Source of the DNA: Niabella agricola
Lineage (GTDB): Bacteria; Bacteroidota; Bacteroidia; Chitinophagales; Chitinophagaceae
Direction of reading: 5' to 3'
Assembly: GCF_021538615.1 (NCBI RefSeq)
Contig: NZ_JAJHIZ010000003.1
Coordinates: 248,001 to 312,000, forward strand
Length of the DNA: 64,000 bases
Of this stretch, positions 9,464 to 42,006 are shown piece by piece. The notes under the pieces were generated by a model, which had not been told where the DNA came from, ran no database searches, and was given only the letters and a program-made list of their open reading frames with translations. Every line of letters starts with the position of its first letter. The first letter of the stretch is position 1. The position numbers and the translations under genes were made by a program.

Positions 9464-9471
9464 GCCCAAAT

Positions 9472-9517: not shown

Positions 9518-9527
9518 AATAGTCATC

Positions 9528-9716: not shown

Positions 9717-10091
9717 ATGAAACGATTATTGGACCCGTTATTCCGGGGGTACGGCCTGGCGTGGTGGCTGATTCATAGCTTCCGTTGGGCAGGTGCCCCC
9801 ATTCCCTTCCTGAACAGCTATCTCACCGATTTTGTATTTGTGCCATTAGTGGCACACGTGGCCCTGCGGGTCATACGGGTCTTTGTTGTGCAAAATGAAA
9901 CGTACCGGATTCCATGCTCCTATTTACTTTTTATGGCATTGTATATATCGGTTGTATTTGAAGGGCTCATGCCGGCCATTGCTAAAACCTATACCCGAGA
10001 TGCGGGCGATGTGCTGGCTTATTTTGCAGGAGCCTTCTTTTATTACGGTATTCATCAGCCGCGGTGGGATTCTGCTTACCGGGAGCCCTGA
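9717..10091 (+). CDS. Multi-pass membrane protein of unknown function
   Basis: A 124-residue protein with about three hydrophobic segments (near 36-55, 67-85 and 95-115). The pattern PIPFLNSYLTDFVFVPLV resembles short Bacteroidota membrane proteins that databases sometimes label as magnesium citrate secondary transporter; I regard that label as unproven. It begins immediately after the upstream stop codon. Its 3' end overlaps the convergent beta-lactamase gene by 16 bases. Confidence 0.65.
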   Translation: MKRLLDPLFRGYGLAWWLIHSFRWAGAPIPFLNSYLTDFVFVPLVAHVALRVIRVFVVQNETYRIPCSYLLFMALYISVVFEGLMPAIAKTYTRDAGDVLAYFAGAFFYYGIHQPRWDSAYREP

Positions 10092-10966: not shown

Positions 10967-10995
10967 TTTTCTCAAACAGGTTTATCATAGAAGAC

Positions 10996-11038
10996 AAAAA
11001 GCAGGCCGTAAATCAACTTATTTAACAACCTGCTTTTT
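10996..11038 (-). terminator. Rho-independent terminator of tex
   Basis: A perfect 10-base stem, AAAAAGCAGG at 10996-11005 and CCTGCTTTTT at 11029-11038, with a 23-base loop. On the minus strand it ends in a T run and lies 34 bases after the tex stop codon and before the beta-lactamase start, so it should separate the two transcripts. Confidence 0.65.
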
Positions 11039-11071
11039 CGTTTTATAGCCGCTTTCCGGATTAGGATTTCA

Positions 11072-20147: not shown

Positions 20148-20765
20148 TCAGACGGCTGCGATCACCTCTTTTAATGCAAGATTTTTAATATCCTCCAGCC
20201 GCATAACGGTTTCGGTTAACCGATGCTTGGGGATACCGATATCCATTACACAAAACAACTGAAGTTCCTGTTTAATAATGGTGCAGTCAAACTGTTTTAC
20301 CACATTCATCACTTCGTTAAGCTGGGTATAATCAAACTGAAGGTGAAATGTTTTCAGCACGGGTTTGCGTACCAGATGCGTTACCTGTAATGCCATCGCT
20401 GCGGCGGATTTATAGGCATTGATGAGCCCCGGAACCCCCAACAGCGTTCCGCCAAAATAGCGCACCACAATGATCAGTGCATCCGTTACCTGCCGGCTAT
20501 CGATCTGCCCCAATATAGGTCTGCCCGCTGTTCCGGATGGTTCCCCGGCGTCGCTTACGCGGAAGGTATTGCCATCCGTTCCCAGGCGATAGGCAAAACA
20601 ATGATGGTTGGCCTTGGGATGTTCTTTCTTTACGGCAGCCAGTATGCTTTTAAACTCTTCGGTATTTTTAAGCGGATAGGCTATGGCAATAAAACGGCTT
20701 CCCCGGTCCTTAAATTCTGCCTGCCCGCTGGTTTCAATGGTTTGATAGTAGTTCCCCTGCTCCAT
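20148..20765 (-). CDS. yigZ: YigZ/IMPACT family protein
   Basis: A 205-residue protein of the UPF0029 family. The N-terminal half has the hallmark run ANHHCFAYRLGTDG, DAGEPSGTAGRPIL and VVRYFGGTLLGVPGLI; the C-terminal half is the DUF1949 domain. Eukaryotic IMPACT regulates the kinase GCN2; the bacterial role is not settled, with links to translation. Its ATG is one base after the ribD stop codon, so it is the second gene of a ribD-yigZ unit. Confidence 0.92.
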   Translation of the reverse strand: MEQGNYYQTIETSGQAEFKDRGSRFIAIAYPLKNTEEFKSILAAVKKEHPKANHHCFAYRLGTDGNTFRVSDAGEPSGTAGRPILGQIDSRQVTDALIIVVRYFGGTLLGVPGLINAYKSAAAMALQVTHLVRKPVLKTFHLQFDYTQLNEVMNVVKQFDCTIIKQELQLFCVMDIGIPKHRLTETVMRLEDIKNLALKEVIAAV

Positions 20766-20766
20766 C

Positions 20767-21828
20767 TTAAACTATAAACTGATTATGTATATTCTTATAA
20801 ACGGTTATTTCATCGGTATCGATCGTGCTTGTTTGCAGGAGCGCCTGTTGCCTTAACAAAGGCGCCCGCAATCCGCCGCCTGCGATCATAGCGGTGTTGG
20901 TAATGACTCTGGCTTCATCCCATACGCCGGCATCCACGAAGGATTGCAGCAGCTGACGACCGCCTTCTACAAAAACGCTCTGGATCTGCCGCTCAAATAA
21001 AATATCCAGCATGCCCGCCACCAGGTCCGCTTCTGCCACAGGGATCCATTCAGCTAACCCCTGCTGCCGGGCCTGCCCATGGGTAAATATCCAGGTGGTA
21101 TTTCCTGAATGCAACAACTTCAACACTCCTGGTAAATTACCGGAGCCGGATACTACGATCTTTACCGGCGTTTTTCCAAACCAGTGCCGGTTATCCAGCA
21201 GGGGATCATCTTTGATGGCGGTCGAAGCGCCTACCATAATGGCGGCTTCTTCGGAACGCCAGCGGTGCACCAGCCGGTCGGTTACAGGGTTGGTGATCTT
21301 TAACCGTTCTGTACCGCCGGAACCCATGATCCCATCCCTTGTCTGCGCCCATTTCAAAATTATATATGGGCGTTTTAATCCATGAAAGGTAAAAAAGCGC
21401 TTATTGAGCGTTATGGCTTCCTTTGTGGCAATCTGTTCGATCACTTCCACGCCGGCATTTCGCAACTTTTCAATGCCCTTGCCGTTAACGGCCTCAAAAC
21501 TATCGCGGCAGCCTATCACTACCCTTGGAATCCGGTGCCGGATGATCAGGTCTGCACAGGGAGGCGTTTTACCGTAGTGTGCGCAGGGCTCCAGTGACAC
21601 ATAAAGGGTCGCTTTTTCAATAAGCCCGGCATGCTGCTCCAGCGCATTCTCAATACAATGTACTTCTGCATGCGCCTCTCCATACCGCTGATGATATCCT
21701 TCCCCGATGATCTGGTTCTCGTATACCAATACGGCACCCACCATCGGGTTGGGCGCCACGTTTCCTGCGCCCAGCTTTGCCAGCTGAAAACAACGCCTGA
21801 GATAGATGTTATGTATTCCAGTATCCAT
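20767..21828 (-). CDS. ribD: Bifunctional riboflavin biosynthesis deaminase/reductase
   Basis: A 353-residue RibD that deaminates and then reduces the pyrimidine intermediate of riboflavin synthesis. The N-terminal deaminase has the zinc motif HAEVHC with catalytic Glu, and PCAHYGKTPPCADLI; the C-terminal reductase starts near residue 150 (RPYIILKWAQTRDG) and has FVEGGRQLLQSF. Length is normal. It is followed by yigZ one base later. No other rib gene is in the window and no FMN riboswitch was seen upstream. Confidence 0.94.
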   Translation of the reverse strand: MDTGIHNIYLRRCFQLAKLGAGNVAPNPMVGAVLVYENQIIGEGYHQRYGEAHAEVHCIENALEQHAGLIEKATLYVSLEPCAHYGKTPPCADLIIRHRIPRVVIGCRDSFEAVNGKGIEKLRNAGVEVIEQIATKEAITLNKRFFTFHGLKRPYIILKWAQTRDGIMGSGGTERLKITNPVTDRLVHRWRSEEAAIMVGASTAIKDDPLLDNRHWFGKTPVKIVVSGSGNLPGVLKLLHSGNTTWIFTHGQARQQGLAEWIPVAEADLVAGMLDILFERQIQSVFVEGGRQLLQSFVDAGVWDEARVITNTAMIAGGGLRAPLLRQQALLQTSTIDTDEITVYKNIHNQFIV

Positions 21829-27902: not shown

Positions 27903-28322
27903 TCAGCCTTTGTAATTTCTTTTTAGAAAATCATATGCCGTTTGCACTTCAAGAATTGAAAAGTAAAAGTCCCTCGTATTTTCGGTTATAATATGTGTAC
28001 AGCCGGCATTATATGCCGCAAAATACTGCAATCCGTCTTCAAAGTCAGTTACATGTTTATCCATTGCGGCCTGCTGTACTTCTTTAGTGCCGCACTCTGC
28101 AACAAAAAAACGTGCTGCCAGCATTCCTATCCGTTCTTTTGCGGACCGGGCGCCATGTTTCTTTTCCGCAAAATAATAAGTGATTGCTAAACTTACCGAC
28201 GTGGTCACTAACTGATATCCCTTCGCTGACGCCCAGCTTAAAACACGAGAAGCATAGGTAAACAATGGGTATTCCTTATTGATTACAGCAACCAGGATAT
28301 TGGCGTCTATAAATAACTTCAT
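27903..28322 (-). CDS. PIN domain toxin, VapC-like
   Basis: A 139-residue PIN-domain ribonuclease, the probable toxin of a toxin-antitoxin pair. Acidic metal-binding positions expected for PIN domains are seen: D6 in FIDANI, the DFEDGLQY motif near residue 90, and NTRDF near 117. VapC toxins cut RNA, often tRNA. The gene begins 8 bases after its antitoxin gene ends, so they are co-transcribed with the antitoxin first, the usual order. Confidence 0.85.
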   Translation of the reverse strand: MKLFIDANILVAVINKEYPLFTYASRVLSWASAKGYQLVTTSVSLAITYYFAEKKHGARSAKERIGMLAARFFVAECGTKEVQQAAMDKHVTDFEDGLQYFAAYNAGCTHIITENTRDFYFSILEVQTAYDFLKRNYKG

Positions 28323-28330
28323 TGCAATGG

Positions 28331-28588
28331 TTATTTATGACGTTTATAATACGCTGCTTTTTGCTTTTTGCCAAGTGGTTTGGCATTGTAAGCAGCAGGC
28401 CCTTCCGCCACCATGCTTACCCAATCTTCAATAGGAATGTGCTCAATGTTGTGATGCTGACCGCTAGCTATAACCTTTTGTAAAAGCAATTCTACAAGTC
28501 GGGAGAGACTTAACCCCTGGGAAGCAGCATATGTCTTTGCATCCTCAATGACAACACGGTTAAAACTTAAGGTAATTTTGGCGTCCAT
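28331..28588 (-). CDS. Antitoxin of PIN toxin pair (DUF6364-like)
   Basis: An 85-residue protein starting MDAKITLSFNRVVIEDAKTY, with a ribbon-helix-helix-like N-terminus (strand ITLSF, then helices EDAKTYAASQG and SLSRLVELLL) and a Lys-rich C-terminal tail that would clasp the toxin. It resembles the DUF6364 antitoxins of Bacteroidota. The frame is open to 28654 but the earlier residues cover the promoter; the ATG at 28588 was chosen because operator and promoter elements lie just upstream of it. Confidence 0.78.
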   Translation of the reverse strand: MDAKITLSFNRVVIEDAKTYAASQGLSLSRLVELLLQKVIASGQHHNIEHIPIEDWVSMVAEGPAAYNAKPLGKKQKAAYYKRHK

Positions 28589-28597
28589 GGTTTTATA

Positions 28598-28639
28598 TTT
28601 ATACGACAAATCTAAAAATTTTATACGTATAAATGCAAA
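28598..28639 (-). promoter_or_regulatory. Promoter and operator of the toxin-antitoxin pair
   Basis: Reading the minus strand, TTTG (complement of 28636-28639) and TAGATTTG (complement of 28607-28614) are spaced by 21 bases, matching the Bacteroidota consensus. Between them lies the perfect palindrome TTTATACGTATAAA (28620-28633), and the half site TTTATACG recurs at 28598-28605, 22 bases away. This is the expected layout for autoregulation by a ribbon-helix-helix antitoxin; binding is inference. Confidence 0.7.
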
Positions 28640-28744
28640 TATTCTTTTAAACATCAGGACTGATTGCCAGCGGGAGACCGCCCACCATTAAACAGGTGAT
28701 CTCCGTCCAATGCTTATCAAAAACCCTACATAAACCAAGGAAAA

Positions 28745-30688
28745 TTAATGAGAAACGACTACATCGAAATCTGATGCATTGATCCGAAGCGCCGTTGCGG
28801 CGGCATCACTGATGCGGGCTGCCGGTCCGTTCTTCTGTTTCAGGCTTTTAATATCACCCAACACTTTGGCATAAACGGTTGTTTTGGCCTTAGGATTCGT
28901 CAGCTTTATGATCGTTCCCGAAGGAACATCATCGATCAATGCATAATATTTTCCATCGTCCCAGCCCTTATCGGTTTTGAATACCCCGGCATGTACCGAT
29001 CGCTCCGTAGTAGATCCGGCATTCGTCTGGGCCTCGTAGTCATTTTTAAAGAATCCGGTTTCATCAAAACCAGCCGGAGGAGGCGCTACATCCGCTACAG
29101 GGGCAGAAGATACCGGCTCTGAAGATTTTCCTTTAGACGGCCTGGCCGGCTCTGTTTTAGTGATGGCTTCCGGTGCCGGTTCAGTTTTTGCTTCGCGGGC
29201 CCTCTGCTCCTGAAGCGCAGCAGCCTGTTCAGCAGTACCAAGGAAACGGGAAGCAATATATCCGGTGATGCCCTGGCTGGTGCGTATGGCCGCCCATTCA
29301 TTGTTGGTATCACCAGTTACTGTAACCATTTCACTGTTCTCTGCTTTTCCAACTATAGGTTCGCTGGTTGCAGGTCCTTTACGGATATTAATGCCGGAGC
29401 CCACAATCGCCATTTGCTTTTCAACTTTTGCAGCGGGCTCCTCTTTTTTAGCCACCGGACGTTCCGGGGCTTCAGCAGAAGGGTCAATAAGGTATTGCGC
29501 GGCGGCATATCCGTCCACACCGTCATTGGTACGTACTGCAGCCCACTCATCATTCACCCGGCGCACCAGGGTAAGGATCTCATCTTTCTGTGCCTGTCCA
29601 ACCACGGGCTGGTCAGTACCCGGTCCTTTACGAATATTGATATAGGTATCCGTAGCAGCTTTCACTTTCTGCCCTGTGGCTTTTTTGGTCTCCGTTCGTG
29701 CTATTTCTTTTTTCTCCGTATTATTTTCTTCAGTTACCGCTTCAACAAACTGAGAAGCGATATAACCTTTTTTACCATCATTTGTGCGGATCGCAGCCCA
29801 TTCGTCATTGATTTTACGGGTCACGGTAACCACCTCATCTTTTTCAACCCGGCCTATAACCGGTTCATCTGTTCCGGGTCCCCTCCGGATATTTACCGCC
29901 GAGGTCGCCGTTACTTTCTTTCCTGCATTTAAATCAACAGGCGTCTTAGCAGTTCCCTTTTCCTCCTCAGGCTGTTTTGTTGTTGCTGCCGGCTCCAGGA
30001 ACTGAGTAGCCATATAGCCTTTTTTGCCGTCACCGGTACGTACTTCTGCCCAATCGCTGTTCGTCATGCGAACAATGGTAACCACTTCATCCTTTTGCAA
30101 AGTACCTACAACCGGCTGGCTGGTGCTTGCTCCTTTCCGGATGTTAACAGCAGAGGTTACTGTTACCTTTTTCCCCGCTTTTAAGGCAGCCCCCGTATTG
30201 TTTTTAGCTGTTTCCTTTTTCTCATCCTCAACCTTTTCCTTTTTAGCCGCAGCGTTATCCGTCAGATATCCTACAAGAATATCCTGGCCTTTGGAGACAT
30301 CGTCCTTCCTTAGCTTATTCCATGATTTCAGGGTTTTTACATCTACCCTGTTAAATTTCCGGCTGATACTGTTCAGGTTATCTTTCGCCCCTGCTTCATA
30401 ATACACCGGTATACCTTTTCTTGATTTTGTATTCAGATTTGAAGCGGTTACAGGAACCTTCACCGTTTGCCCGATCCGAAGGTCCTGACTGGTTTTCATG
30501 CCGTTAGCTTTTGCCAACGAAGAAAGAGAAACTCCGTATTTCGTACTCAAATACTGTAATGACTCCCCGGATGTAACCCGGTGCTCCACCACCGCTCCTC
30601 GGGAAGTGGTAACAGCAGTTAGTTTTCTTTGCGCCTGGGCAGATCCCATCAATAATATCAATCCGGCCGTAACAATAAACGATTTCAT
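28745..30688 (-). CDS. LysM and SH3 repeat envelope protein with RlpA-like C-terminus
   Basis: A 647-residue exported protein. A signal peptide (to about residue 19) is followed by a LysM domain (HRVTSGESLQYLSTKYGVSL, about 36-78), a second LysM-like segment (about 94-140), then four bacterial SH3 repeats, each opening with an INIRKGPGT-type motif and ending GYIASQF or similar, with the linkers rich in Lys, Glu and Thr. The last 100 residues look like an RlpA-type double-psi barrel (YYALIDDVPSGTIIKLTNP). All these modules bind or act on peptidoglycan. The internal repeats make this gene prone to recombination. Enzymatic activity is not evident. Confidence 0.85.
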   Translation of the reverse strand: MKSFIVTAGLILLMGSAQAQRKLTAVTTSRGAVVEHRVTSGESLQYLSTKYGVSLSSLAKANGMKTSQDLRIGQTVKVPVTASNLNTKSRKGIPVYYEAGAKDNLNSISRKFNRVDVKTLKSWNKLRKDDVSKGQDILVGYLTDNAAAKKEKVEDEKKETAKNNTGAALKAGKKVTVTSAVNIRKGASTSQPVVGTLQKDEVVTIVRMTNSDWAEVRTGDGKKGYMATQFLEPAATTKQPEEEKGTAKTPVDLNAGKKVTATSAVNIRRGPGTDEPVIGRVEKDEVVTVTRKINDEWAAIRTNDGKKGYIASQFVEAVTEENNTEKKEIARTETKKATGQKVKAATDTYINIRKGPGTDQPVVGQAQKDEILTLVRRVNDEWAAVRTNDGVDGYAAAQYLIDPSAEAPERPVAKKEEPAAKVEKQMAIVGSGINIRKGPATSEPIVGKAENSEMVTVTGDTNNEWAAIRTSQGITGYIASRFLGTAEQAAALQEQRAREAKTEPAPEAITKTEPARPSKGKSSEPVSSAPVADVAPPPAGFDETGFFKNDYEAQTNAGSTTERSVHAGVFKTDKGWDDGKYYALIDDVPSGTIIKLTNPKAKTTVYAKVLGDIKSLKQKNGPAARISDAAATALRINASDFDVVVSH

Positions 30689-31728: not shown

Positions 31729-33093
31729 TTATTGCGCATGAAAAATCAACCGGGTGTTCCCGATCCAGAAATAATCACCATCCTTTAACAATACTTCCGT
31801 AGTGTCCGACAAGCGGATCGAATTCTTTTCTGAATTGAAAAAGGTTCCATTCTTGCTGGGTGCTTTATCCTGTAAAAAATAGGCATATCCATCTGTTGCA
31901 TCCGGCTTCCGAAGAATCTGGCAATGATTTTTTGATATAAACCGGTCCGAGGTCCGGATACCGAAATCAGCCGTCGCTCCCGGCAGATCATTCCACCGTC
32001 CGATCGTAACCAGGTCCTTATTGATAAAAAAATGCTGCCCCTCTGTAAGAATATTCGGTTCTACCTCAATATAGGCTCCCGCATTTTTCCCCGGGATCGC
32101 GGGATCAATATCAATGACCGCTGTATGCTGCTGCGGCGTCTCTATCTTTCCATCCAACCCGTTGTAAAAAAACTGGCTTAACTCCCTGCCGGTCTTGAAA
32201 CGGTTCAGCGGATTCTTTTCCAGGCAGCGCCGCACCAGCATTTCCAGCCAGGCCGGGATATCACATTCCTCCGGACGCTGCCCTTCTTTTTTTTCGATGG
32301 CCTCCATCCGCTTCCGGCAGATATCCGGCACGGGCGCACTCTTATGTTTTTCCTCCAGTGCCAACATTTCGTTGGCCTGTTTATAATCTTTTACAGGAAA
32401 GGGCACCTGTCCGGCAAGCAGTTCGTAAATAACGATCCCCAGACTGTAGATATCAGAAGGCGTATCTACCAGCTGCCCGCGCCATTTCTCAGGCGCTTTG
32501 TACTCAGCCATACCATCTTCCTTTTTGCTATGCCGCACCGCATCGGGGTCTGCAAACGACAATCCGAAATCAATAAGCACATACCGGCATGAGCCATCCT
32601 CATTCTTTGTACGGATAATATTCTTTGGGTTGATATCATTGTGAATAATAGCATCCCGGTTAATGATGACCGAATCCGAAAGCCAGTGCTGAGGCGGCGA
32701 ATCATAAGTATGATAATGATGGCAATAACTTAAAGCTGAAGCCATTTGAGTGATCATCTCCAGCGTATCTTCTATAGAAAAATACCCTTCCCGCTGAATA
32801 ATGGATTCCAGCGTTTCGCCGTCTACATATTCCATTTCCAGGGAGGGCTTATTGTCTAGTATGTATTCGTCATAGATTTTTACAATATTGGGATGATCCA
32901 GTCGCTTCAGGATCTCGACTTCATTTTTAAAATCACGGTATTCTTTAGCGTCTTCGTTTTCAAGTACAAAATCCAGCTGTTTCAGCGCCACCACATGCCC
33001 CGGATCTTCCTTGCTCCTTGCCTTAAATACCGCCGAAAAACCGCCATGACCAACCACCTTAAGAATATCGTATTTTGATGCTAACTCCTGCAT
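31729..33093 (-). CDS. Serine/threonine protein kinase with C-terminal FHA domain
   Basis: A 454-residue cytoplasmic protein. The Hanks-type kinase covers about residues 1-310: Gly-rich loop GHGGFS (15-20), Lys38 in VALK, catalytic loop H151-N-D153 (HNDINPKN, Asn replacing the usual Arg), D175-F-G, and APE at 190-192. An FHA phosphothreonine-binding domain spans about 356-452, with IGR, SKNHCQI and KNGTFFN. There is no transmembrane segment or PASTA domain. It is the last gene of the seven-gene minus-strand kinase/cell-wall run; the FHA domain may dock it on phosphorylated partners from the same run. The catalytic Asp and Lys are present, so it should be active. Confidence 0.9.
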   Translation of the reverse strand: MQELASKYDILKVVGHGGFSAVFKARSKEDPGHVVALKQLDFVLENEDAKEYRDFKNEVEILKRLDHPNIVKIYDEYILDNKPSLEMEYVDGETLESIIQREGYFSIEDTLEMITQMASALSYCHHYHTYDSPPQHWLSDSVIINRDAIIHNDINPKNIIRTKNEDGSCRYVLIDFGLSFADPDAVRHSKKEDGMAEYKAPEKWRGQLVDTPSDIYSLGIVIYELLAGQVPFPVKDYKQANEMLALEEKHKSAPVPDICRKRMEAIEKKEGQRPEECDIPAWLEMLVRRCLEKNPLNRFKTGRELSQFFYNGLDGKIETPQQHTAVIDIDPAIPGKNAGAYIEVEPNILTEGQHFFINKDLVTIGRWNDLPGATADFGIRTSDRFISKNHCQILRKPDATDGYAYFLQDKAPSKNGTFFNSEKNSIRLSDTTEVLLKDGDYFWIGNTRLIFHAQ

Positions 33094-33097
33094 TCCA

Positions 33098-33194
33098 TTT
33101 CTAATTTCTTATTTTTGATTTCTCATTTCTCATCTCTCATCTCTGATTTCTGATCTCTGATTTCTGATTTCTGATTTCTGATCTTTCATTTCCC
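33098..33194. repeat. Degenerate heptamer repeat between kinase and FHA genes
   Basis: The whole intergenic space is made of drifting copies of a 7-base unit close to TGATTTC (also as TCATTTC and TGATCTC), about 13 copies. It separates two genes of the same run. Similar but shorter word repeats occur at 34100-34140 and 40450-40485. Confidence 0.75.
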
Positions 33195-33195
33195 A

Positions 33196-34098
33196 TCAGG
33201 ATTCCAGCAACTGGAACTCCAGGACAATGGTATCATTAAAACAGATCGAATCGCCGTTTTTTAATATATGCGGCACCGTTGCATTGCTTAAACTGATCCC
33301 CGAAAAATCATCCAGCGAAGCATTAAAAACCTTTATTTTATTTGAAGGATTGTTCAGAAACTTTGAGCGGAACAGTTTATAGGCCCCGATCTCTTTATCA
33401 AACACTATTGCCGCATTGGAACGGCTTATAAAATTATTGATCTTATATTGCTCTTCATTCTTTTCCTCAATTCCCACAAACGCGATATCATTGTGGATCT
33501 TAGGTCCGTTTTCAATCTTGGGATCTTTTCCCCGGCCGATAAAATAATGTTTGCCGCTGGGCTCCAGGATATATTCCGGCTCCCAGGTAATACCCTCCGT
33601 TGCCACAATCCTGGCCCTCTGTTTTTTCAGGATATCTTTGGGGGTTAGTACTTCCACTCCAATCCCGTCCGTAATGGCGGTCACTGTTGCAGTGTCCGGC
33701 GATTCATGTTTTACATCAATGCTCAGATCCTCTTTGCAGGCAATGCCTCTTGATTTAAATTCCCGTTTGATCCGGTTGATGAACTGCGGATCTTTCACCA
33801 GGCTCATCAATCCTACATTTTCGATGGCATTATCTTTAAAGGCCGAGTGAAATACCAGTCCCGAGATCACGGTCTTGCTATAACCCAGCATCCGCACCGT
33901 TTGAGAAATCGCACCCAGTGTGATCTCTTTTAACTCCTCTATATTATCTGCCCGGGAAGCTGCGCGCTCCGGAGCTTTCGGAATTCCAGGAGTATTCCCG
34001 GAAGCTTCAGGCAGTTTTTTTTCCGGCGGCCCAAAGGAGGTATCATCTGCATTGAGCTTCTCTGAAAACTGTTCAAATTTTTTCTTAAACCAATTCAT
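33196..34098 (-). CDS. FHA domain protein with FhaA-like architecture
   Basis: A 300-residue protein beginning MNWFKKKFEQFSEKLN, a short amphipathic start and Pro/Ala-rich linker, then a domain at about 50-150 (LKEITLGAISQTVRMLGYSK, DPQFINRIKREFKSRGIAC) that resembles the N-terminal DUF3662 region of mycobacterial FhaA, and an FHA domain from about 180 to the end (HYFIGRGKD, NFISRSNAAIVFD, LKNGDSICF). The FHA Arg, Ser and Asn-type contact residues are at GRG and ISRSN. FhaA in Mycobacterium binds phosphorylated cell-wall regulators. The DUF3662 resemblance is from layout and pattern, not a search. It lies directly after the SEDS-PBP fusion gene. Confidence 0.75.
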   Translation of the reverse strand: MNWFKKKFEQFSEKLNADDTSFGPPEKKLPEASGNTPGIPKAPERAASRADNIEELKEITLGAISQTVRMLGYSKTVISGLVFHSAFKDNAIENVGLMSLVKDPQFINRIKREFKSRGIACKEDLSIDVKHESPDTATVTAITDGIGVEVLTPKDILKKQRARIVATEGITWEPEYILEPSGKHYFIGRGKDPKIENGPKIHNDIAFVGIEEKNEEQYKINNFISRSNAAIVFDKEIGAYKLFRSKFLNNPSNKIKVFNASLDDFSGISLSNATVPHILKNGDSICFNDTIVLEFQLLES

Positions 34099-34213
34099 GT
34101 TATTGAGATTTGAGACTTGAGATTTGAGTTTTGAGATTTAAACCTCCGTTAAATTTTAAAACATGTTCAACAACCAACCTCAAACATGGAACCTTTTAGC
34201 TTTTAACTGACCG

Positions 34214-37200
34214 CTAAAAATACCCCGCCGCTTTCAACTGTTTTAAAATCTCCACCGCCAGTGTCTTCGCGTACTCCGAATTCCCGATCTCTTCAATACG
34301 GATCGTAAACGCAATCGGGGCCTTTAATTTAGGCGAAGCTACAAAAAATGTATACCAGGAATCGGTAACCCGCTTCAGTTCTGTCTTTTCGCCTTTTTTT
34401 ACCAGCTTGTCCCGCTCCGGGCTGCCGGTTTTTCCATGCACTTCCAGTCCTGAAGCCGCCGATACCTTGGCGGATTGTTCCCGCATAAAATCGCTGATCA
34501 GCGCAGCAATCCGGGGCTGGGCCGTCACAGCGGTTTCCTTTTGCGGAACCAGCTTATTGTTCCAGCTTTTAAAGAGGAAACGGGAAGGTTGTAAGATGCC
34601 GCTGTCTGCCAGTGCGCCCGACATTTTAGCCAGATGCAGTGGTGTTGCGGAGAGCTCACCCTGCCCCCAGGCAATATCTGAATAAGGCGACTGCAGCCTC
34701 CGCCTCGTGTTCATCAGCCGCTGACTGTTAAAGATATTTTTACCCCGGACCACAAAAGCCCCCCATTCCTTAAAATAGGTTTCACTATCGTAATCCTCCG
34801 GCCGCTGAAAATGAAACCCTCCGCGGTTCAGGATATTCATCCCCAGCGCATCGTATATATTAAACAAAGACGACTGCAAATTTTTATCGTTCGCCAGTTT
34901 GATGAAATATACATTACTGGAATGTACAATGGCCGTACGCATATCTACATTCATATTTACCGGCTCGCCCTGATGGATCACTTCCGCAGGATAAATAAAA
35001 TAACTGAACTGCGCGGCAGAAGGGCCATATTGGTTCATAGCAGCCGCTGCATCTATGATCTTAACGGTAGATCCCGGCCTGGAGTTAAAGGTAATGCCCA
35101 GATCCTGCGGCACCACTACCCGGTCCTGGAAAATCTGCTTAAAAATGGTGCGGTAATCAGAAGGATCAATATTGCTGATCAGTTTCAGATCCTTATAGGA
35201 AGGCGCCGGGTTTGAAGCAGAAGCCAGCACATCACCTGTACTGGCATTAACAGCAACCACCGAAGTCCGGAACGGGGCAGATGCAGCCGTATTCTGGATA
35301 ACCGCGCTGATCTTCTGGTTCAATGCCGCATCCAGCGAGAGCTGGATATCCTTGTCTTTATTATTTTGCAGCTCCACCCATTGGCCGTCCCTGCCCTCTT
35401 TCAGAATGGGGGCCAGGGCGCTGTAATCGTATTTTACCAGCTCGGACTCTTTGCGCGTTGCCGGTAAAAAACGGTCTTCCCGGTAACGATCCGATGTTTT
35501 TTGCGAAGTAGTATAGGTAACGTCAAATCCTTTCAGCAGGGTATAATGCCGGTATTCCGCAGCATACCCCGCTTCCTCTTCATTGGCGATTTCTTTGTTA
35601 TAATCTCCCAGCCAAAATAAAAGATCCGCGCCAAAAGGATAGTAACGGTTCTGATCCCGTTTTAATTGCTCCGCATAAAGTACCGGGTTCGCTCCTAAAG
35701 GAATCAGTTTATTCTTAACCTTATCAAAATTAGCCTTACTGGATGTGGCCAGCAGCACACCGTTACGGTCGTAAATATTACCGGAACGGATCTCCCGCAA
35801 AAAGATGCCGATGCGGGGATTATAGCTGTATTGCCAGGCGCCTTTGCGGTTTAATACCAGCGCCGGTTTGGTAATGTAGGTATTGGACTTATACTGGTAC
35901 CAGAACAAGGTGCCAATGAAAAAGATCAATACCGCAAAAAAAGTAAGAATCGCATAAGCATTTACATTGTCATAGTTCTTTTTCACATATTCCATTTCGA
36001 GGGCATCCCCTTTTTCGTTGGAAAGCAATAATACCATAATGAATGCTGCCAGCGTAATAATAATACCCGCATTACCCTTGCTAAGAAAGGGCACAGAAAT
36101 ACCCGTGAGCGGTATTAGCCCCAGGGTGCCTGCCGTAATCAGAAAAAACTGGATCATAGTGGCAATGGCAATACCCGCTACCAGGTAAAAAAGAAAGGGT
36201 TTACCAGTGCGCCGGGCGGCCAATAAAGACCGGTAAGTGAGCAACCCGAATGCCAGGAAGACAGCAATCAGCGCAACAAGCCCCAGCTCCTCACCCATGC
36301 TTTCCAGAATCATATCGGTATGATATGCAGGCATTACACTGGAAAAACCCTTACCCAGGCCCTGCCCAAGGAAGCCGCCTGCATTCAGGGACCAGATTCC
36401 CTGCGCTACCTGGTCGCCCCCTATGAGCTTATTCTCCCAGATATCCTTGAACATCCCGTTCCGGTCGGCCAGGCGCTGCGTAAATTCAAAGGGCAATGCC
36501 GCCAGCAGGATGAAAGATGAAATGATCAGCACAATAAAGAAAACAGATTCATACCGCTTTTTAAAGAAGGCATAGCCCAGGGTGCCTGCGCAGGCGAGGG
36601 CAGCCAGCAAGGGGAGATAATTATGTTGCGCATTATTGATGAAACGGGAGGTAATCATCAGTGCAATCACATAAATCACGGCAGCCAGTACCATCTGGAA
36701 AAATTCTTCTTTGGCAAATGCATAAAAGAATAGGAAGGTCAGACAAAGCACGATGGCCGGGCCCAGGTCGCCCAACAAGGCATATATACCCAGGAGGAAT
36801 ACAAATAACAGCAACATTTTTATATTATTCCGTGTAAGCCAGCGGTTATCCGGAATGTTCCGGAAGTATTCGGCATTGACAGCGAAATATGCGGCGAAGA
36901 ATACCACCATGCAGATCTTTGATAGTTCACTTACCTGGAATCCGAACAGGTTTACTTTTACGCCGCTCCCCTCCGGCCCCGTACCGATGAACGCAAGCAG
37001 CAGCATCAGGAATATGGACAACAGCATCCAGGAATAACCGCGCGGAGCCTTCAGCCCGCCGGATATGGGCAGCAGGTTATACAACGGATCAAACCATTTT
37101 GAATGGTAAAATCGCATCACCGCATGTTCTTTAAGAAAGAACAACACCACAGAAAAGAACAACAGTACCCCCACCACGCATTGTGCCATACCGCTTCCGT

Positions 37201-38257
37201 GAATGATATCGCGCAGCGGGTCCTGCATGCTGTAGAGCACAATGATTCCTGTACCGGAAAGAAAAAACAACAGCGGCAGGATGAACTGATCGCTCCGATA
37301 GTTCTTTAGCCAAAGCACAAAATGCAGTATCCAAAAAGCCAGTACAAACAACACCAGGTGTGTAAAATATTCTTTCTTAAAATCGGCAGGCGTGCGTACC
37401 GTAAAGATCTTATCACTCTTAATCTGGCGGAACTCGGTACGGTCCAGGATGCGGATCCGGTGTGTTTTTCCGGTAAAATGAAAGGACTGGTCTCCCTGGA
37501 TGGCCGCAATGCCTTTTGCCGGACCAAAATCAAACCCTGGCTTTATGGCCACTACCCGGTAATTGCTGTTTTCTTTAAGATTGTAAAATTCATAGGATCC
37601 GTTTTCATTAGTGCGCGCAAAGAATTCGACCGGGTCATTTCCGGCCTGCGTGCTCAGGGTATCATAATAATTCGAGGGAAAAATCTCGGTCATTTTTACC
37701 AGCACGCCGGCTCCTACCTGTCCTCCGCTGCTGTCGGAGGCCGCCAGCCGGATCTTACCATGGATGGACAATTTCGTCTTGGTGTTCTGCACCGCAACCT
37801 CATCGGGATACTTTGCAGGATTTTTTAATTCTGTTGCATATAATGCACTGTCCATATCCAGCTGGGTGATCGCATTTAAAAAACGGAGCTTCCCCGACTC
37901 ACTGGAAGTGTTTAAGAACTCCGCAGCCGGTATCATCAGGCTGTTTTTATTCAGTGCGCCCAGGTTGGGCAATTGCCCCTGCTTTTCTACCAGGTTCTTT
38001 ATTTTTCCGGCAACAAAGCGAATGTATTCCTCATCCGTAAAATAGCCGCCTTTTGCAAAGATCTGCTGCAGCGTGGAAGCCTGCACCGGTGCAACAAGAT
38101 TGACCATTTTACCACTTTCGTACCCATATTCCGAATTGATAAAATCATCTTTCTTATGCTGGTAGTACTGGAAGGCCATAATGCCCATCAACAAGGTAAC
38201 CGCAGCCAGCAGTACACGTTCTATTCTTCTTGGGTATAATGTAACTTTCTTCTTCAT
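34214..38257 (-). CDS. SEDS (RodA/FtsW) - class B penicillin-binding protein fusion
   Basis: A 1347-residue bifunctional peptidoglycan synthase. Residues 15-31 form one membrane anchor, followed by an exported region to about 295 with a carboxypeptidase-regulatory-like beta domain (155-270). Residues 297-745 carry the multi-pass SEDS polymerase, with GDLGPA (496-501), H646-T-D648 followed by GEELG (655-659), and PFLSKGNAG (723-731) in place of the common PFLSYGGSS. A further anchor (769-787) leads into the PBP part: the pedestal motif GNIYDRNGVLLA near 826-837, then the transpeptidase with S1063-x-x-K1066, S1113-S-N1115 and K1276-T-G1278, all intact. SEDS proteins polymerise glycan strands and class B PBPs cross-link them; normally they are separate proteins. 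It starts 3 bases after the PP2C stop. Confidence 0.93.
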   Translation of the reverse strand: MKKKVTLYPRRIERVLLAAVTLLMGIMAFQYYQHKKDDFINSEYGYESGKMVNLVAPVQASTLQQIFAKGGYFTDEEYIRFVAGKIKNLVEKQGQLPNLGALNKNSLMIPAAEFLNTSSESGKLRFLNAITQLDMDSALYATELKNPAKYPDEVAVQNTKTKLSIHGKIRLAASDSSGGQVGAGVLVKMTEIFPSNYYDTLSTQAGNDPVEFFARTNENGSYEFYNLKENSNYRVVAIKPGFDFGPAKGIAAIQGDQSFHFTGKTHRIRILDRTEFRQIKSDKIFTVRTPADFKKEYFTHLVLFVLAFWILHFVLWLKNYRSDQFILPLLFFLSGTGIIVLYSMQDPLRDIIHGSGMAQCVVGVLLFFSVVLFFLKEHAVMRFYHSKWFDPLYNLLPISGGLKAPRGYSWMLLSIFLMLLLAFIGTGPEGSGVKVNLFGFQVSELSKICMVVFFAAYFAVNAEYFRNIPDNRWLTRNNIKMLLLFVFLLGIYALLGDLGPAIVLCLTFLFFYAFAKEEFFQMVLAAVIYVIALMITSRFINNAQHNYLPLLAALACAGTLGYAFFKKRYESVFFIVLIISSFILLAALPFEFTQRLADRNGMFKDIWENKLIGGDQVAQGIWSLNAGGFLGQGLGKGFSSVMPAYHTDMILESMGEELGLVALIAVFLAFGLLTYRSLLAARRTGKPFLFYLVAGIAIATMIQFFLITAGTLGLIPLTGISVPFLSKGNAGIIITLAAFIMVLLLSNEKGDALEMEYVKKNYDNVNAYAILTFFAVLIFFIGTLFWYQYKSNTYITKPALVLNRKGAWQYSYNPRIGIFLREIRSGNIYDRNGVLLATSSKANFDKVKNKLIPLGANPVLYAEQLKRDQNRYYPFGADLLFWLGDYNKEIANEEEAGYAAEYRHYTLLKGFDVTYTTSQKTSDRYREDRFLPATRKESELVKYDYSALAPILKEGRDGQWVELQNNKDKDIQLSLDAALNQKISAVIQNTAASAPFRTSVVAVNASTGDVLASASNPAPSYKDLKLISNIDPSDYRTIFKQIFQDRVVVPQDLGITFNSRPGSTVKIIDAAAAMNQYGPSAAQFSYFIYPAEVIHQGEPVNMNVDMRTAIVHSSNVYFIKLANDKNLQSSLFNIYDALGMNILNRGGFHFQRPEDYDSETYFKEWGAFVVRGKNIFNSQRLMNTRRRLQSPYSDIAWGQGELSATPLHLAKMSGALADSGILQPSRFLFKSWNNKLVPQKETAVTAQPRIAALISDFMREQSAKVSAASGLEVHGKTGSPERDKLVKKGEKTELKRVTDSWYTFFVASPKLKAPIAFTIRIEEIGNSEYAKTLAVEILKQLKAAGYF

Positions 38258-38260
38258 TTC

Positions 38261-39382
38261 TTAATAACCTTGCAGTGCATTGCGGCGAACACTATCCCGG
38301 TAGATGGTATCCGTTGCATTGATCAATGTGTCCAGTTGCTGTAACCGGGCGCTGTCTGTTACCGGCAGACTATCTACCGGAATTGCTGTTGTATCCGGCA
38401 GAGCCGCTGGAGGTTCATTTGTTTTGAAAAAAAATTTAGTTCCCGTCCAGTTTGCCAAAAAGCCAACGATAAACGCGATGATCACGGGAAGAATGCTTAT
38501 TTTTTTTTTGGAGGAGGTTGTAGGCATAACAGACATTGCTTCATTGGGTTCGTCATCGGTTGTTGCAATCGGGATCTCAATAGCCTCTTTCGTTCTTTTG
38601 CGGCCCGGCTTTTTAGCGGCCGCATACGTAGCCAGCACCACTGTAATATTGTCTTTTCCACCCAGTGCATTGGCCTTATCGATCAGCTGTTGCGTTTTAA
38701 GCCGGAGCGAGCCGGAGGAGGCCAGTATTTCTGCCATCTGGGCCTGTGTCACCAGGTCTGTGAGCCCGTCGGAACAAAACAGCGCGATGTCTCCCGGCAA
38801 AAAACTGTGTTCCGTAATATCGAAATAATGATTGGAATCCTCCGCATCCAGGAACTGCTCCCCCGCCATTTTGCTGATCTCGTTGCGGCGCGGATGTTGC
38901 ATTGCTTCGGCTTCTGTAAGATATCCGCTATCTTCCTTCATACCTACGGAAGAATGATCACGGGTAATTTTTAGCATATTTCCATTGCGGTAAACATAAC
39001 CGCGGCTATCGCCCACATGCGCCACATACATCATTTCTTTATCTGCATCCAGCACCGCCACCGAAAATACACAGCTCATGCGACTCAGCGCTGTATTTGC
39101 TCTCCGCTCCTCGAATATTTTATTATTGGCAGCGATCGCTGCTTCTTTCAGTAGCTGCAGCGGCGCTCCAAAACTGAAATGCTGCAGATATCCCTCTATC
39201 GTTTCCCTGGCTATAAGGGCGGCTTCCGCGCCTCCCTCGTAACCGCCAACACCATCAATGGCACCGGCCAGCGCACGCGAGGGTGTTTCCCAAAGACCGG
39301 GAACAGCAATGAAATTATCTTCATTTTCCTCCCGTCTGCGGCCCAGATCTGTTTGTCCGTATAAATCGACCGTTCTGCTCAT
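38261..39382 (-). CDS. Transmembrane PP2C-family Ser/Thr phosphatase
   Basis: A 373-residue phosphatase. The PPM/PP2C domain fills residues 1-245 with the metal-binding acids in place: REENEDNF, GAIDGVGGYEGG, HVGDSRGYVYRNG, FCSDGLTDLV and GGKDNITVVLA. One membrane segment follows at about 297-315 (ISILPVIIAFIVGFLANWTG) and a short exported tail. This matches PstP of Actinobacteria, which reverses phosphorylation by PknA and PknB. The ATG overlaps the stop of a 21-residue membrane peptide (TAATG), and the SEDS-PBP gene follows after 3 bases, so the three are tightly coupled. Confidence 0.92.
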   Translation of the reverse strand: MSRTVDLYGQTDLGRRREENEDNFIAVPGLWETPSRALAGAIDGVGGYEGGAEAALIARETIEGYLQHFSFGAPLQLLKEAAIAANNKIFEERRANTALSRMSCVFSVAVLDADKEMMYVAHVGDSRGYVYRNGNMLKITRDHSSVGMKEDSGYLTEAEAMQHPRRNEISKMAGEQFLDAEDSNHYFDITEHSFLPGDIALFCSDGLTDLVTQAQMAEILASSGSLRLKTQQLIDKANALGGKDNITVVLATYAAAKKPGRKRTKEAIEIPIATTDDEPNEAMSVMPTTSSKKKISILPVIIAFIVGFLANWTGTKFFFKTNEPPAALPDTTAIPVDSLPVTDSARLQQLDTLINATDTIYRDSVRRNALQGY

Positions 39383-39447
39383 TATTTCACTTTAGATTGT
39401 AACAGAAACACCAGGATGATAAATATCAGCATTATGGTACCCAGCAT
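39382..39447 (-). CDS. 21-residue membrane peptide coupled to the PP2C gene
   Basis: A small frame starting MLGTIMLIFIILVFLLQ and ending in a basic tail (QSKVK). It is almost wholly one hydrophobic helix followed by positive charges, enough for a single membrane span. Its TAA stop shares a base with the ATG of the phosphatase gene (TAATG), the classic sign of coupled translation. It could act as a small partner of the phosphatase or SEDS protein, or simply as a coupling leader. No family known to me. Confidence 0.55.
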   Translation of the reverse strand: MLGTIMLIFIILVFLLQSKVK

Positions 39448-39496
39448 AGTTTCCCAGAATTAAGAATTAAAATAACAAATCTGTGAGCAGAACCGG

Positions 39497-40447
39497 TTAT
39501 ACTGCCGCCTTAAAGTCCAGCTGAAAGATGCCGCAAACGATCATAGATTCACTTTTAAGCGGGTGCCATACCGGGTGCTCGCCCACACGGCTCAGTTCCA
39601 GCTTTTGTTCATTCACAAAGGCGTCTGCAAACAGTGCAATATAAAATGCCCGGGCAGCGTCATCGTACCGGATCATCATATGCTCTTTTTGCAAGCTCCC
39701 GCTCGGCTCATTGATGCACAGTACAGTAGCCGTACTGGTCATGCCGTCGATCGCCTTTGTAATTCTCAATTGCTTTTCACGCATCGGAAAACTATAACGC
39801 TGTTTGTTTAATACAAACTGAACCGTAGCCAGTTTGTCCGGAGCCACGCTGTTACGCGAGCCTCCGGGCGGCGCCTGCACCGAGGTAAAATCGCCCAGGA
39901 ACTCCTTACGAAACTTCACACGAAAATGACCTTTGGATAAAATATCGATATTCGAAAAAGTAGTGGGGTTCAGATCATATTTAGAGTACTTGGAGTGCTT
40001 ACTGCTTACGGATACTTTGATATGTTCAGATGAAAGCTCTGACCATGATTTTTCCGAAGTGGGCGTACTCACCACCTGGATGGTTCCCGGCTCGATCTCG
40101 CGGTTGTCGACCCCGCGTTCTGCCGGGCAATACTGGAAATCCCAAAAACTTCCAATGGGCTCATAGCGCGGATACTGGTCCTTGCGCTGATTGATATAGT
40201 CGTAAAACTCATCCAGAATTCCCTCCGTAATACCGGCCAGCCGTAACTCTGCATGCTTGTAATCCTCCGGCCGCATCAGGATGAGGTAACTGCAATCATA
40301 CATCATCCGTTTATTAAAGGATTCCCGCTCCACTGTTTCTTTAAAGGAAGTCAATACCTGATCCACCAGCGCCTGATTGGTCAGCCGTACCACCTCTTCC
40401 TCCTCCTCATCATCCGGCAGCAGCCATCTTTTTAATTTATCAAACAT
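39497..40447 (-). CDS. Unknown protein with degenerate FHA-like C-terminus
   Basis: A 316-residue soluble protein starting MFDKLKRWLLPDDEEEEEVV; the frame is open 16 codons further up but the ATG at 40447 avoids overlapping a word-repeat spacer. The N-terminal half (about 20-105) recalls the helical start of FhaA-type proteins by layout. The last 100 residues read as an FHA fold (KQLRITKAI, PSGSLQKEHMMIRYDD, FVNEQKLELSRV, MIVCGIFQLDF) but the Arg of the usual GR motif is not evident, so phosphothreonine binding is doubtful. It lies between the membrane kinase and the phosphatase, which suggests an adaptor. Function is inference. Confidence 0.7.
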   Translation of the reverse strand: MFDKLKRWLLPDDEEEEEVVRLTNQALVDQVLTSFKETVERESFNKRMMYDCSYLILMRPEDYKHAELRLAGITEGILDEFYDYINQRKDQYPRYEPIGSFWDFQYCPAERGVDNREIEPGTIQVVSTPTSEKSWSELSSEHIKVSVSSKHSKYSKYDLNPTTFSNIDILSKGHFRVKFRKEFLGDFTSVQAPPGGSRNSVAPDKLATVQFVLNKQRYSFPMREKQLRITKAIDGMTSTATVLCINEPSGSLQKEHMMIRYDDAARAFYIALFADAFVNEQKLELSRVGEHPVWHPLKSESMIVCGIFQLDFKAAV

Positions 40448-40491
40448 AGTTTCAATTTTCAATTTGAGATTTGCAATTTGAATCTTGCTCC

Positions 40492-42006
40492 TCAAAGCTT
40501 CTCAATCCTTCGCTCCACAATCCGAACGATCTTCATTTCCTTATCAAATACCACCGATACATCAATATTATAGGGAATCCAGTCATCCTCTTCATTTTGT
40601 TTAATCTTATACAGCATGCTGAAATCCACATAGGTATTTCCATTAGGATTGTAGGTAAATACATACGATGAATTGGTGATATCGGCCTCTGTGAACCGCC
40701 ATTTGCCATGATAGGCCACGCATTCTTTTTGAATACGGGTCAGTAATTCATTGGAGCGGTTATAATATTGCTGTACCGTGTCTCTAAAAAACCGGGACAA
40801 ACTGCCACAGTCCTGCCGCATGCGATAATAATCATTAATCCTGTTTTTAATTGCAGCTTCTTTCTGTCCCAGGTCTTCACTGGTAAGCACCTGCGTTGAA
40901 GTCATGGTATCATTCTGTGCAGTTGCGGTATCCTCCGGCTGAATCAGCAGCGGCTCCGGCTGCGCTTGTTTTTTCTGACGCGGCCTGGACGCAGGCATTT
41001 CTGTTTCAGGCTTTTTGGCATCGGGGGTTACTCCAAACATTGAAAGAATGTCATCCTTGTTCAGTGCAAAAACAATCAGTCCGCTCACAATCAGGAACAC
41101 CAGGAAGATATATGCAAAACGGTTGGAACCGGTCTTTTTCGCCGGATGAGTAGACAGGGGTGGGTAAATTTGTTCGATGGGTTGCGGAGGTACCGGGGTG
41201 AATATTATCGTTTCGTCGTTCTTTGTAGCGGCATCTAATTTCCGAAGCTCTTTCCGATCCTCCGGATTTTTACCGAGGTACAGCGGTAGTAGTCCCCGCC
41301 AGGGTTCCGGAAGTACCGACGTATCGATGTTTTTACGCACAATATTTTCCTGGATCTCAAAATCGGATATTTTGGACGCATCGTAAGGCGCCGTTCCGCT
41401 AACAAGATGGTAGAACGTTACCGCGAGCGAATAAATATCCGTTTTATACGACAATGTTTTTACATCGTAAACCTGCTCCGGGCTCATATACATCAGCGTT
41501 CCCATCCGGGAGCCGGTTTGTGTTACCGTTACATTATCCCGGAGCTTGGCAATTCCAAAATCCAGGATCTTGATCTGTCCGTCTTCGGTCAGAAAAAGAT
41601 TTGAGGGCTTTATATCACGGTGTATAATGTTTTTACGATGGGTATACTGAAGCGCATCCACCAGATCATTCCACCAGGTGATCAGCTGCAGATTGGAAAA
41701 CCGGGAGCCCTCTTTCATCCGCTGCGCAAGATCTTTGCCTTCCAGGTATTCCATGATCATACAGGGGCAGCCGGCTACAGTAGAATAATCATAAATATTC
41801 CGGATATGCGGATGATTCAGATGCACCATCAGCCGGGCCTCGTTTTCAAAACGGCCCACCACTTCAGGCATCCCGCAAAAACGCTTTTGAAGTACCTTTA
41901 CAGCAGCCGGCTTTTGCAGGTAGTTTTCTGCATACCATACCTCGGCCATTCCCCCCTCGCCCAATTTATACTTCAGCTTATAACCGTTGATGGTTGTATT
42001 CTCCAT
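40492..42006 (-). CDS. Transmembrane serine/threonine protein kinase, PknB-like
   Basis: A 504-residue receptor-type kinase. The kinase domain covers 8-255: Gly-rich GEGGMA (16-21), K37 in AAVKVL, H129-R-D131 with KPSN, D149-F-G151, and SPEQVYD. A Pro-rich linker leads to one membrane segment at about 297-315 (FAYIFLVFLIVSGLIVFAL), and an exported region of about 185 residues. The exported part has no PASTA repeat; it holds a helical stretch (QKEAAIKNRINDYYRM) and a beta-rich end. The frame is open to 42105 but the ATG at 42006 gives the canonical kinase start. It is the first gene of the run and the likely sensor. Confidence 0.92.
   Translation of the reverse strand: MENTTINGYKLKYKLGEGGMAEVWYAENYLQKPAAVKVLQKRFCGMPEVVGRFENEARLMVHLNHPHIRNIYDYSTVAGCPCMIMEYLEGKDLAQRMKEGSRFSNLQLITWWNDLVDALQYTHRKNIIHRDIKPSNLFLTEDGQIKILDFGIAKLRDNVTVTQTGSRMGTLMYMSPEQVYDVKTLSYKTDIYSLAVTFYHLVSGTAPYDASKISDFEIQENIVRKNIDTSVLPEPWRGLLPLYLGKNPEDRKELRKLDAATKNDETIIFTPVPPQPIEQIYPPLSTHPAKKTGSNRFAYIFLVFLIVSGLIVFALNKDDILSMFGVTPDAKKPETEMPASRPRQKKQAQPEPLLIQPEDTATAQNDTMTSTQVLTSEDLGQKEAAIKNRINDYYRMRQDCGSLSRFFRDTVQQYYNRSNELLTRIQKECVAYHGKWRFTEADITNSSYVFTYNPNGNTYVDFSMLYKIKQNEEDDWIPYNIDVSVVFDKEMKIVRIVERRIEKL

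Follow-up and report, generated by a model that had tools for sequence, protein, structure and literature searches.

A kinase-, phosphatase- and FHA-linked synthase locus in Niabella agricola as a likely Bacteroidota counterpart of the actinobacterial fhaA-pstP-rodA-pbpA-pkn locus

Does the phospho-control of wall synthesis associated with the actinobacterial fhaA-fhaB-pstP-rodA-pbpA-pknA-pknB locus have a counterpart in a Gram-negative phylum? The question is raised by a row of genes in Niabella agricola (Bacteroidota), found in a 64,000-nucleotide stretch of its genome (the whole stretch analysed, hereafter the window). Positions 31729..42006, all on the minus strand, hold six open reading frames (ORFs) and one further ORF of 21 codons. 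A preliminary description of this DNA had read them as a seven-gene row of kinase, FHA, PP2C and SEDS-PBP proteins, and domain matches and intact catalytic motifs confirm that part list:

40492..42006, minus strand: K1, a membrane Ser/Thr kinase of about 504 amino acids from the start at 42006 (the ORF is open to 42105); Pfam Pkinase at 153.6 bits, motifs AAVK, HRDIKPSN and DFG, one transmembrane segment by hydropathy
39497..40447, minus strand: X, an FhaA-type protein with an FhaA_N-like N-domain and a degenerate C-terminal FHA domain, judged from the FHA fold, a profile alignment and the FhaA_N scores of orthologues
39382..39447, minus strand: a 21-amino-acid single-pass membrane microprotein overlapping the PP2C start, a hydrophobic ORF that recurs across loci
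38261..39382, minus strand: a PstP-like PP2C Ser/Thr phosphatase with a C-terminal transmembrane segment (hydropathy); Pfam PP2C at 47.5 bits, motifs DGVGG, GDSR, SDGL and GKDNIT
34214..38257, minus strand: SP, a SEDS-transpeptidase fusion of 1347 amino acids, from domain matches and catalytic motifs
33196..34098, minus strand: F, an N-terminal domain followed by a C-terminal FHA domain that keeps Gly-Arg and Ser-Arg, from the FHA fold and the Pfam FHA matches of relatives
31729..33093, minus strand: KF, a soluble kinase-FHA fusion with HND for HRD in the catalytic loop (HNDINPKN); Pfam Pkinase at 146.7 and FHA at 37.6 bits

We put the probability at roughly two in three that the product of this locus is a third, dedicated peptidoglycan synthase served by a phospho-signalling circuit of its own, and that the locus is a Bacteroidota counterpart of the actinobacterial one. 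Judged from sequence, it is a conserved module and appears to be a divergent counterpart rather than a member, because PASTA domains, FhaB and separate SEDS and PBP genes were looked for and not found. The gene block of this soil bacterium probably gives the cell a way to turn one of its wall-builders on or off. Among the titles and abstract openings listed by searches of the open-licence PMC literature, none describes this locus or, for Bacteroidota, a SEDS-PBP fusion that occurs naturally together with kinases.

A conserved gene neighbourhood

An SP match occurs in 16/16 genomes of the same genus, as frame-broken pieces in three of them (G002, G003 and G012) and cut by contig ends in two more (G001 and G013). 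SP was found in 40 of 294 genomes (15 of 101 genera) of the family sample, in 15 of 395 genomes (8 of 170 genera) of the phylum sample and in 6 of 195 genomes in the class of G498, a carrier of another class. In 23 genomes from other families of the same order, all matches listed had the frame size of RodA, FtsW or a PBP, the best at 62 bits, and none of three pattern matches on viral contigs was a relative. A scan of named genomes, in which 80 of 280 related stretches were read, gave carriers in Niabella, Niastella, Spirosoma, Larkinella, Fibrella, Pedobacter, Mucilaginibacter, Segetibacter, Ferruginibacter, Candidatus Symbiothrix and others.

We called a locus well flanked if it had at least 6 kb upstream and at least 4 kb downstream, which held for 67 of the 80; the other 13 are cut by contig ends. 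Counted with neighbour profiles that had been iterated on the same loci, these 67 contain F in 67, PP2C in 65, a kinase in 65 and X in 63. X, PP2C, F and a kinase all lie within 9 kb on the SP strand in 63 of them. Confinement to one strain, the doubt that the preliminary description attached to its own proposal, is thereby answered by the same-genus genomes and by these 63 loci across Bacteroidota.

Gene order varies around this common content. Niabella has Kin-X-PP2C-SP-F-Kin and several other Chitinophagaceae X-PP2C-SP-F-Kin; Sphingobacteriaceae show either the latter order or Kin-X-PP2C-SP-F, to which some add a kinase behind F. In Spirosoma and Niastella the order is mostly X-PP2C-Kin(-Kin)-SP-F, the kinase genes standing between PP2C and SP. 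The set can be plasmid-borne, since genes for FHA, PP2C, two kinases, SP and FHA are found on a plasmid of Spirosoma oryzicola. One Spirosoma-like locus (L068: SP at 8929-12915, F at 20490-21374 on the plus strand, four other ORFs between) comes from a record titled Flavobacterium sp. SUN052, an organism name that may be wrong because of this resemblance.

Further forms come from another class and are presumably Rhodothermia-like. In G498 (locus L155), a single ORF of 1384 amino acids matches PP2C (36.3 bits), SEDS (169.7 bits) and transpeptidase (127.6 bits), with X before it and an FHA protein after it. G355 has a separate PP2C gene directly upstream of SP, and X before the PP2C; G339 and G451 (contig C87) have X-SP-F, and neither a PP2C nor a kinase was recognised in the nearest 6 kb or so. 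Fusions join the parts of this set in three ways: SEDS with PBP in SP, PP2C with SP in G498, and kinase with FHA in the window.

Downstream of the locus and on the same strand, the window encodes a secreted-looking protein with a LysM and four SH3 domains (28745-30688, minus); ORFs of similar length (634-638 amino acids), matched by length, lie near the Niabella-type loci L029, L056 and L058. Farther on, a PIN-domain protein (27903-28654, minus) with a DUF6364 protein before it looks like a type II toxin-antitoxin module.

The fused synthase and its relatives

SP begins with a transmembrane segment and an extracytoplasmic domain, continues as a SEDS polymerase and ends as a class-B-type transpeptidase. 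We aligned 83 SP ORFs of more than 1000 amino acids from 86 sources (the window, 80 named-genome loci and five other-class loci). The Asp of the SEDS HTD motif (D648) is present in 83/83 rows, and the motif aligns with the HTD of solved FtsW and RodA structures; in E. coli FtsW it is H295-T296-D297, according to the consulted part of PMC8765783. The transpeptidase residues of SxxK (S1063, K1066) and SxN (S1113, N1115), together with K1276, are likewise kept in 83/83, the third motif being KTG in 76 rows and KSG in 7. The PBP_dimer pedestal domain gives a weak match (12.8 bits against a cut-off of 24.4).

SP falls far under the NCBIfam equivalog cut-offs (rodA 91.0/336.7, ftsW 128.8/337.5 and pbp2 85.3/455 bits). 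Elsewhere in the same genome there is a RodA that passes its cut-off (RodA_shape, 399.2 bits); its gene adjoins a PBP2 that does so too (495.5 bits), with MreC nearby. FtsW- and FtsI-type genes are also found elsewhere, their best matches lying under the equivalog cut-offs (ftsW 267.4 against 337.5). Because the genome has RodA-PBP2 and FtsW/FtsI-type genes as well, SP counts as a third SEDS synthase. The preliminary description had tied the mycobacterial locus to polar wall growth, which finds no support in this Niabella, where a RodA-PBP2-MreC set is kept. The genome also encodes a second PBP2-type transpeptidase (G000:C3:4211851-4212879, L159), which the transpeptidase tree places as sister of the RodA-linked PBP2.

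Where does the SEDS part of SP belong? A first SEDS tree (45 rows, 447 columns), with the Rhodococcus fusion L188 included, grouped Nocardia RodA with SP, its other-class forms and the fusions of Acidobacteriota type (100/99). For a second tree (52 rows, 441 columns) we dropped L188, the Nonomuraea row L190, which has no SEDS, and SPfam_L019, whose domain limits were wrong; outside the Niabella genome and E. coli, the labels FtsW and RodA reflect annotation or tree position. In this tree SP, the four other-class forms and six Acidobacteriota/Eisenbacteria-type fusions make up one clade (100/100), and six actinobacterial RodA proteins another (100/99), of which those of Nocardia and Actinomyces alone were seen to be linked to pstP. 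The FtsW (8/8 rows) and RodA (8/8) of Bacteroidota occupy clades of their own within a 24-row classical group (100/99). Among the first 200 trees of a 1000-replicate bootstrap, 199 contain the split that sets SP, actinobacterial RodA and an FHA-linked SEDS of Monoglobus against classical SEDS, and 104 unite SP with actinobacterial RodA alone. For actinobacterial RodA, approximately unbiased (AU) tests gave p values of 0.005 and 0.0048 when it was placed with RodA or FtsW. A transpeptidase tree of 38 rows, to which Embleya contributed none, sets SP apart from PBP2 and FtsI.

A bolder proposal, to which we give clearly less than an even chance, is that FHA/kinase/PP2C-linked SEDS proteins are a third deep class, an old and separately phospho-gated module of which the actinobacterial "RodA" would be the unfused branch and the SP of Bacteroidota and Acidobacteriota the fused one. 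The microprotein would be its subunit at the FhaB position, possibly equivalent to the FhaB anchor without the FHA domain.

Most organism-named database rows among P0125-P0244 are Acidobacteriota, many of them marked partial, and the sequences read look like pieces of SP-clade SEDS-transpeptidase fusions. A Rhodococcus pseudokoreensis plasmid (L188, 5249-8089, plus) encodes a SEDS-PBP_dimer-transpeptidase fusion of 946 amino acids. Its listed neighbours include no kinase, PP2C or FHA gene, and it seems to have arisen by a fusion of its own.

The signalling proteins and the microprotein

The preliminary description had given the FhaA layout to F, which proved to be the wrong protein. The X orthologues of L153 and L157 pass the Pfam FhaA_N cut-off of 25 (27.4 and 26.5 bits), and both match FHA; those of L154 and L155 match FhaA_N under the cut-off (19.9 and 17.7 bits). 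X of the window itself has no Pfam match, and its C-terminal FHA fold (residues 202-316) was found by fold search. Among 66 aligned X proteins, 17 match FHA and 2 match FhaA_N, and none of 66 aligned F proteins matches FhaA_N at E 0.01, so F was rejected as an FhaA homologue. Compared by hhalign, the X profile and the FhaA N-domain from three actinobacteria align across 67 columns (E 3e-6 for this single comparison, probability 88), and for the other-class X set the alignment covered the FHA domain (E 8e-6). Fold searches with the N-domains of X and F returned lists filled by FHA domains, with no FhaA N-domain structure among the matches listed. The FhaA-like X of L153, used as a query for FhaA in other phyla, found three proteins only, 73-99 percent identical.

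F is the better candidate for a reader of phosphorylation. Its FHA fold was found by fold search, 40 of 66 aligned relatives have a Pfam FHA match, and the binding-loop residues G188, R189, S225 and R226 are kept in 66/66. Because Gly-Arg and Ser-Arg are so kept, F should be able to read phosphothreonine; the His that follows the binding residues is Asn in the window. X in most Bacteroidia is likelier to be a scaffold, since the FHA Arg is kept in only 22 of 66 X proteins (Gly in 37, Lys in 7). At the F position, the other-class loci L154 (11435-12805, plus; 90.1 bits) and L155 (12479-13753, plus; 78.2 bits) have an FHA protein with an N-terminal HEPN_Swt1 domain and not the Bacteroidia N-domain.

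The C-terminal part of K1 is extracytoplasmic and without PASTA. The preliminary description was right that PASTA domains are lacking and that the fusions differ: neither K1 nor KF matches PASTA in Pfam at E 1, the domain being present in the Nocardia counterpart, and SEDS with PBP and kinase with FHA each form one ORF. The PP2C with its transmembrane segment stands directly before the SEDS gene (SP) and scores 177.3 bits against NCBIfam Stp1, under the cut-off of 230.

As far as Pfam shows, the genome has its entire Hanks-type circuit in this locus. Across 6.26 Mb, a scan with PF00069, PF13672 and PF00498 gave only two Pkinase matches, one PP2C_2 match and one FHA match, all in the locus. In a census of 77 hand-chosen genomes, a kinase was present in 38/38 SP-positive genomes of the family versus 15/27 SP-negative ones, and in 12/12 SP-positive genomes outside it. 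Complete kinase listings for 18 SP-positive genomes place all matches at the locus in 12 (G004, G008, G009, G010, G014, G023, G145, G146, G302, G533, G579 and G678) and some elsewhere in five (G006, G259, G498, G686 and G694); in G215 the lone match sits on another contig.

The microprotein between X and PP2C is a conserved membrane protein that has gone unstudied. Defined as a short ORF with a mean hydropathy above 1.8 over 15 residues, it is found in 53 of 73 loci, compared with 3/73 on the reverse strand, 4.7/73 in mononucleotide shuffles and 34/415 in other gaps; allowing the first 110 bases of the called PP2C raises the count to 67/73 in a wider scan that had no matched control. Its transmembrane stretch ends in HFxxLPR in Niastella, Spirosoma and kin, mostly in HFxxIK or NFxxIK in Pedobacter, Mucilaginibacter and Segetibacter, and in LQ-S/T-K in Niabella. 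Candidates are present in L153 and L154, with none in L155. No FhaB (a transmembrane segment plus FHA) lies between X and PP2C, a gap that in the window holds only the 21-amino-acid transmembrane ORF without FHA. That ORF occupies the fhaB position, and the fhaB product starts with a hydrophobic stretch in the three actinobacteria read; that the microprotein is equivalent to the FhaB membrane anchor is our guess.

Possible control, rival accounts and known systems

How might such a module work? In SP, one chain would both polymerise glycan (the SEDS part) and cross-link it (the transpeptidase part). The C-terminal domain of K1 may sense a periplasmic cue, upon which K1 and KF would phosphorylate threonines on the cytoplasmic side, in the kinases themselves, in the X and F linkers or in those portions of SP that face the cytoplasm. 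F and the FHA domain of KF would dock on the phosphorylated sites with X as a scaffold beside them, and the membrane PP2C next to SP would strip the marks, so that SP activity would track the balance of kinase and phosphatase. In mycobacteria, FhaA is bound by phospho-CwlM and by phosphorylated MurJ, and its depletion increased labelled-vancomycin incorporation, according to the consulted part of PMC6180346. By analogy, we lean weakly toward phosphorylation with FHA docking as a restraint that PP2C would lift.

Several observations weigh against reading the locus as a dedicated, phospho-controlled counterpart of the actinobacterial one. The AU tests are borderline (p 0.045 for SP with RodA and 0.075 for SP with FtsW) and do not firmly exclude these placements, the SEDS tree has long branches and few taxa, and the transpeptidase tree leaves SP unresolved, not joined to actinobacterial PbpA. 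PASTA and FhaB are missing, and X so often lacks its FHA Arg. The module is patchy in both the family and the phylum sample; among the 67 well-flanked loci, L068 and L072 are down to SP with F, and no X was recognised in L080 or L088. In L153 and L157, a kinase and a PP2C are both absent from the nearest 6 kb or so. Nor is the circuit closed everywhere, given the many kinase matches in other-class genomes (13 in G498, 8 in G355, 17-18 in G339, G358 and G451). What the sequence shows is the parts with their intact motifs, the synteny, the PP2C-SP fusion, the tie of X to FhaA and the place of SP in the SEDS tree; the targets of phosphorylation, the docking, the sign of control and the cue are inferred.

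Some of these points would suit a convergent origin, in which a Bacteroidota SEDS-PBP pair, copied from the RodA-PBP2 or FtsW-FtsI of the lineage itself, became a fusion and acquired its kinases, PP2C and FHA proteins independently, the actinobacterial likeness being analogy. The borderline AU values, the transpeptidase tree and the missing PASTA and FhaB all leave room for this account. We nevertheless consider it unlikely, as the Bacteroidota FtsW and RodA clades lie away from SP, the gene order is collinear with that of actinobacteria, and X is tied to FhaA both by FhaA_N in its orthologues and by the N-domain profile match. SP could also be an ordinary extra RodA-PBP2 beside a signalling operon whose kinases serve other targets, as its patchiness, the two loci reduced to SP and F and the many kinases elsewhere in some carriers might suggest. 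This account strikes us as less probable still, since the neighbourhood is kept over wide divergence (F lies within 9 kb of SP in 67/67 well-flanked loci) and PP2C and SP exist as a single polypeptide. Finally, kinase scores against PADLOC models, HEPN_Swt1 on the F-position proteins of L154 and L155, and the whole copy on a Spirosoma plasmid recall a conflict or defence-type phospho-signalling island with the wall enzyme as effector. The listed PADLOC matches span kinase domains only, with none in X, PP2C, SP or F at E 0.001; the SP motifs are intact and synthetic, not lytic; and the actinobacterial counterpart is needed for growth, as stated in the consulted part of PMC6554272. We have set this account aside as very improbable.

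If the reading of a dedicated phospho-regulated synthase is true, phospho-control of wall growth is no actinobacterial or Gram-positive peculiarity and has a counterpart in Gram-negative Bacteroidota, with a synthase that is one polypeptide and a kinase/phosphatase set that can be as small as the locus. The module may be deletable because RodA-PBP2 runs in parallel, and the phosphorylation event that sets SEDS-PBP activity could then be sought without touching an essential pathway. It would also suggest that actinobacterial RodA is not a classical RodA.

Among known systems, the classical RodA-PBP2 and FtsW-FtsI pairs have active-site motifs in common with SP, which does not reach their NCBIfam equivalog cut-offs. 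The fusions of Acidobacteriota and Candidatus Eisenbacteria, six rows of mostly partial database entries, belong to the same SEDS clade as SP, and in rows so named the SEDS part is 43-51 percent identical to that of L155; no characterisation of them was found in literature titles and abstract openings. In a clostridial cluster on a Monoglobus pectinilyticus plasmid (L254), an FHA gene adjoins SEDS and PBP and the SEDS falls on the SP/actinobacterial side. It differs in having separate genes, with no kinase or PP2C listed in an 11-kb stretch whose gene table is incomplete.

The actinobacterial locus remains the nearest comparison. According to the consulted part of PMC6554272, the pstP-rodA-pbpA-PASTA-kinase linkage is conserved throughout Actinobacteria and the pknB-fhaA linkage reaches a subset of Firmicutes, with Bacteroidetes not mentioned there; in mycobacteria, wall synthesis is acted on by PstP, PknB and FhaA (PMC6554272 and PMC6180346, both consulted in part). 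The consulted portion of PMC7159879 mentions neither FtsW nor penicillin, and that of PMC8262863 does not mention FhaA, PknA or PknB. Nocardia farcinica (L187) and Actinomyces oris (L249) have the order FhaA_N-FHA, FHA, PP2C, SEDS, transpeptidase, kinase, PASTA kinase, as does Tsukamurella (L248), except that its listing has no PP2C feature from FhaB to SEDS. The likeness to the mycobacterial locus on which the preliminary description was built is thus supported by gene order, FhaA_N in X orthologues, the SEDS tree and wide synteny. Both loci contain, on one strand and in this order, an FhaA_N-FHA protein, PP2C, SEDS, a transpeptidase and one or more kinases, and both actinobacterial RodA and SP fall outside classical RodA and FtsW in the SEDS tree, SP with borderline AU values. 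Niabella differs in fusing SEDS and PBP in one ORF with an added N-terminal extracytoplasmic domain, in having a transmembrane microprotein in place of FhaB and no PASTA, and in placing the FHA protein F after the synthase, with a kinase-FHA fusion, while keeping a separate RodA-PBP2.

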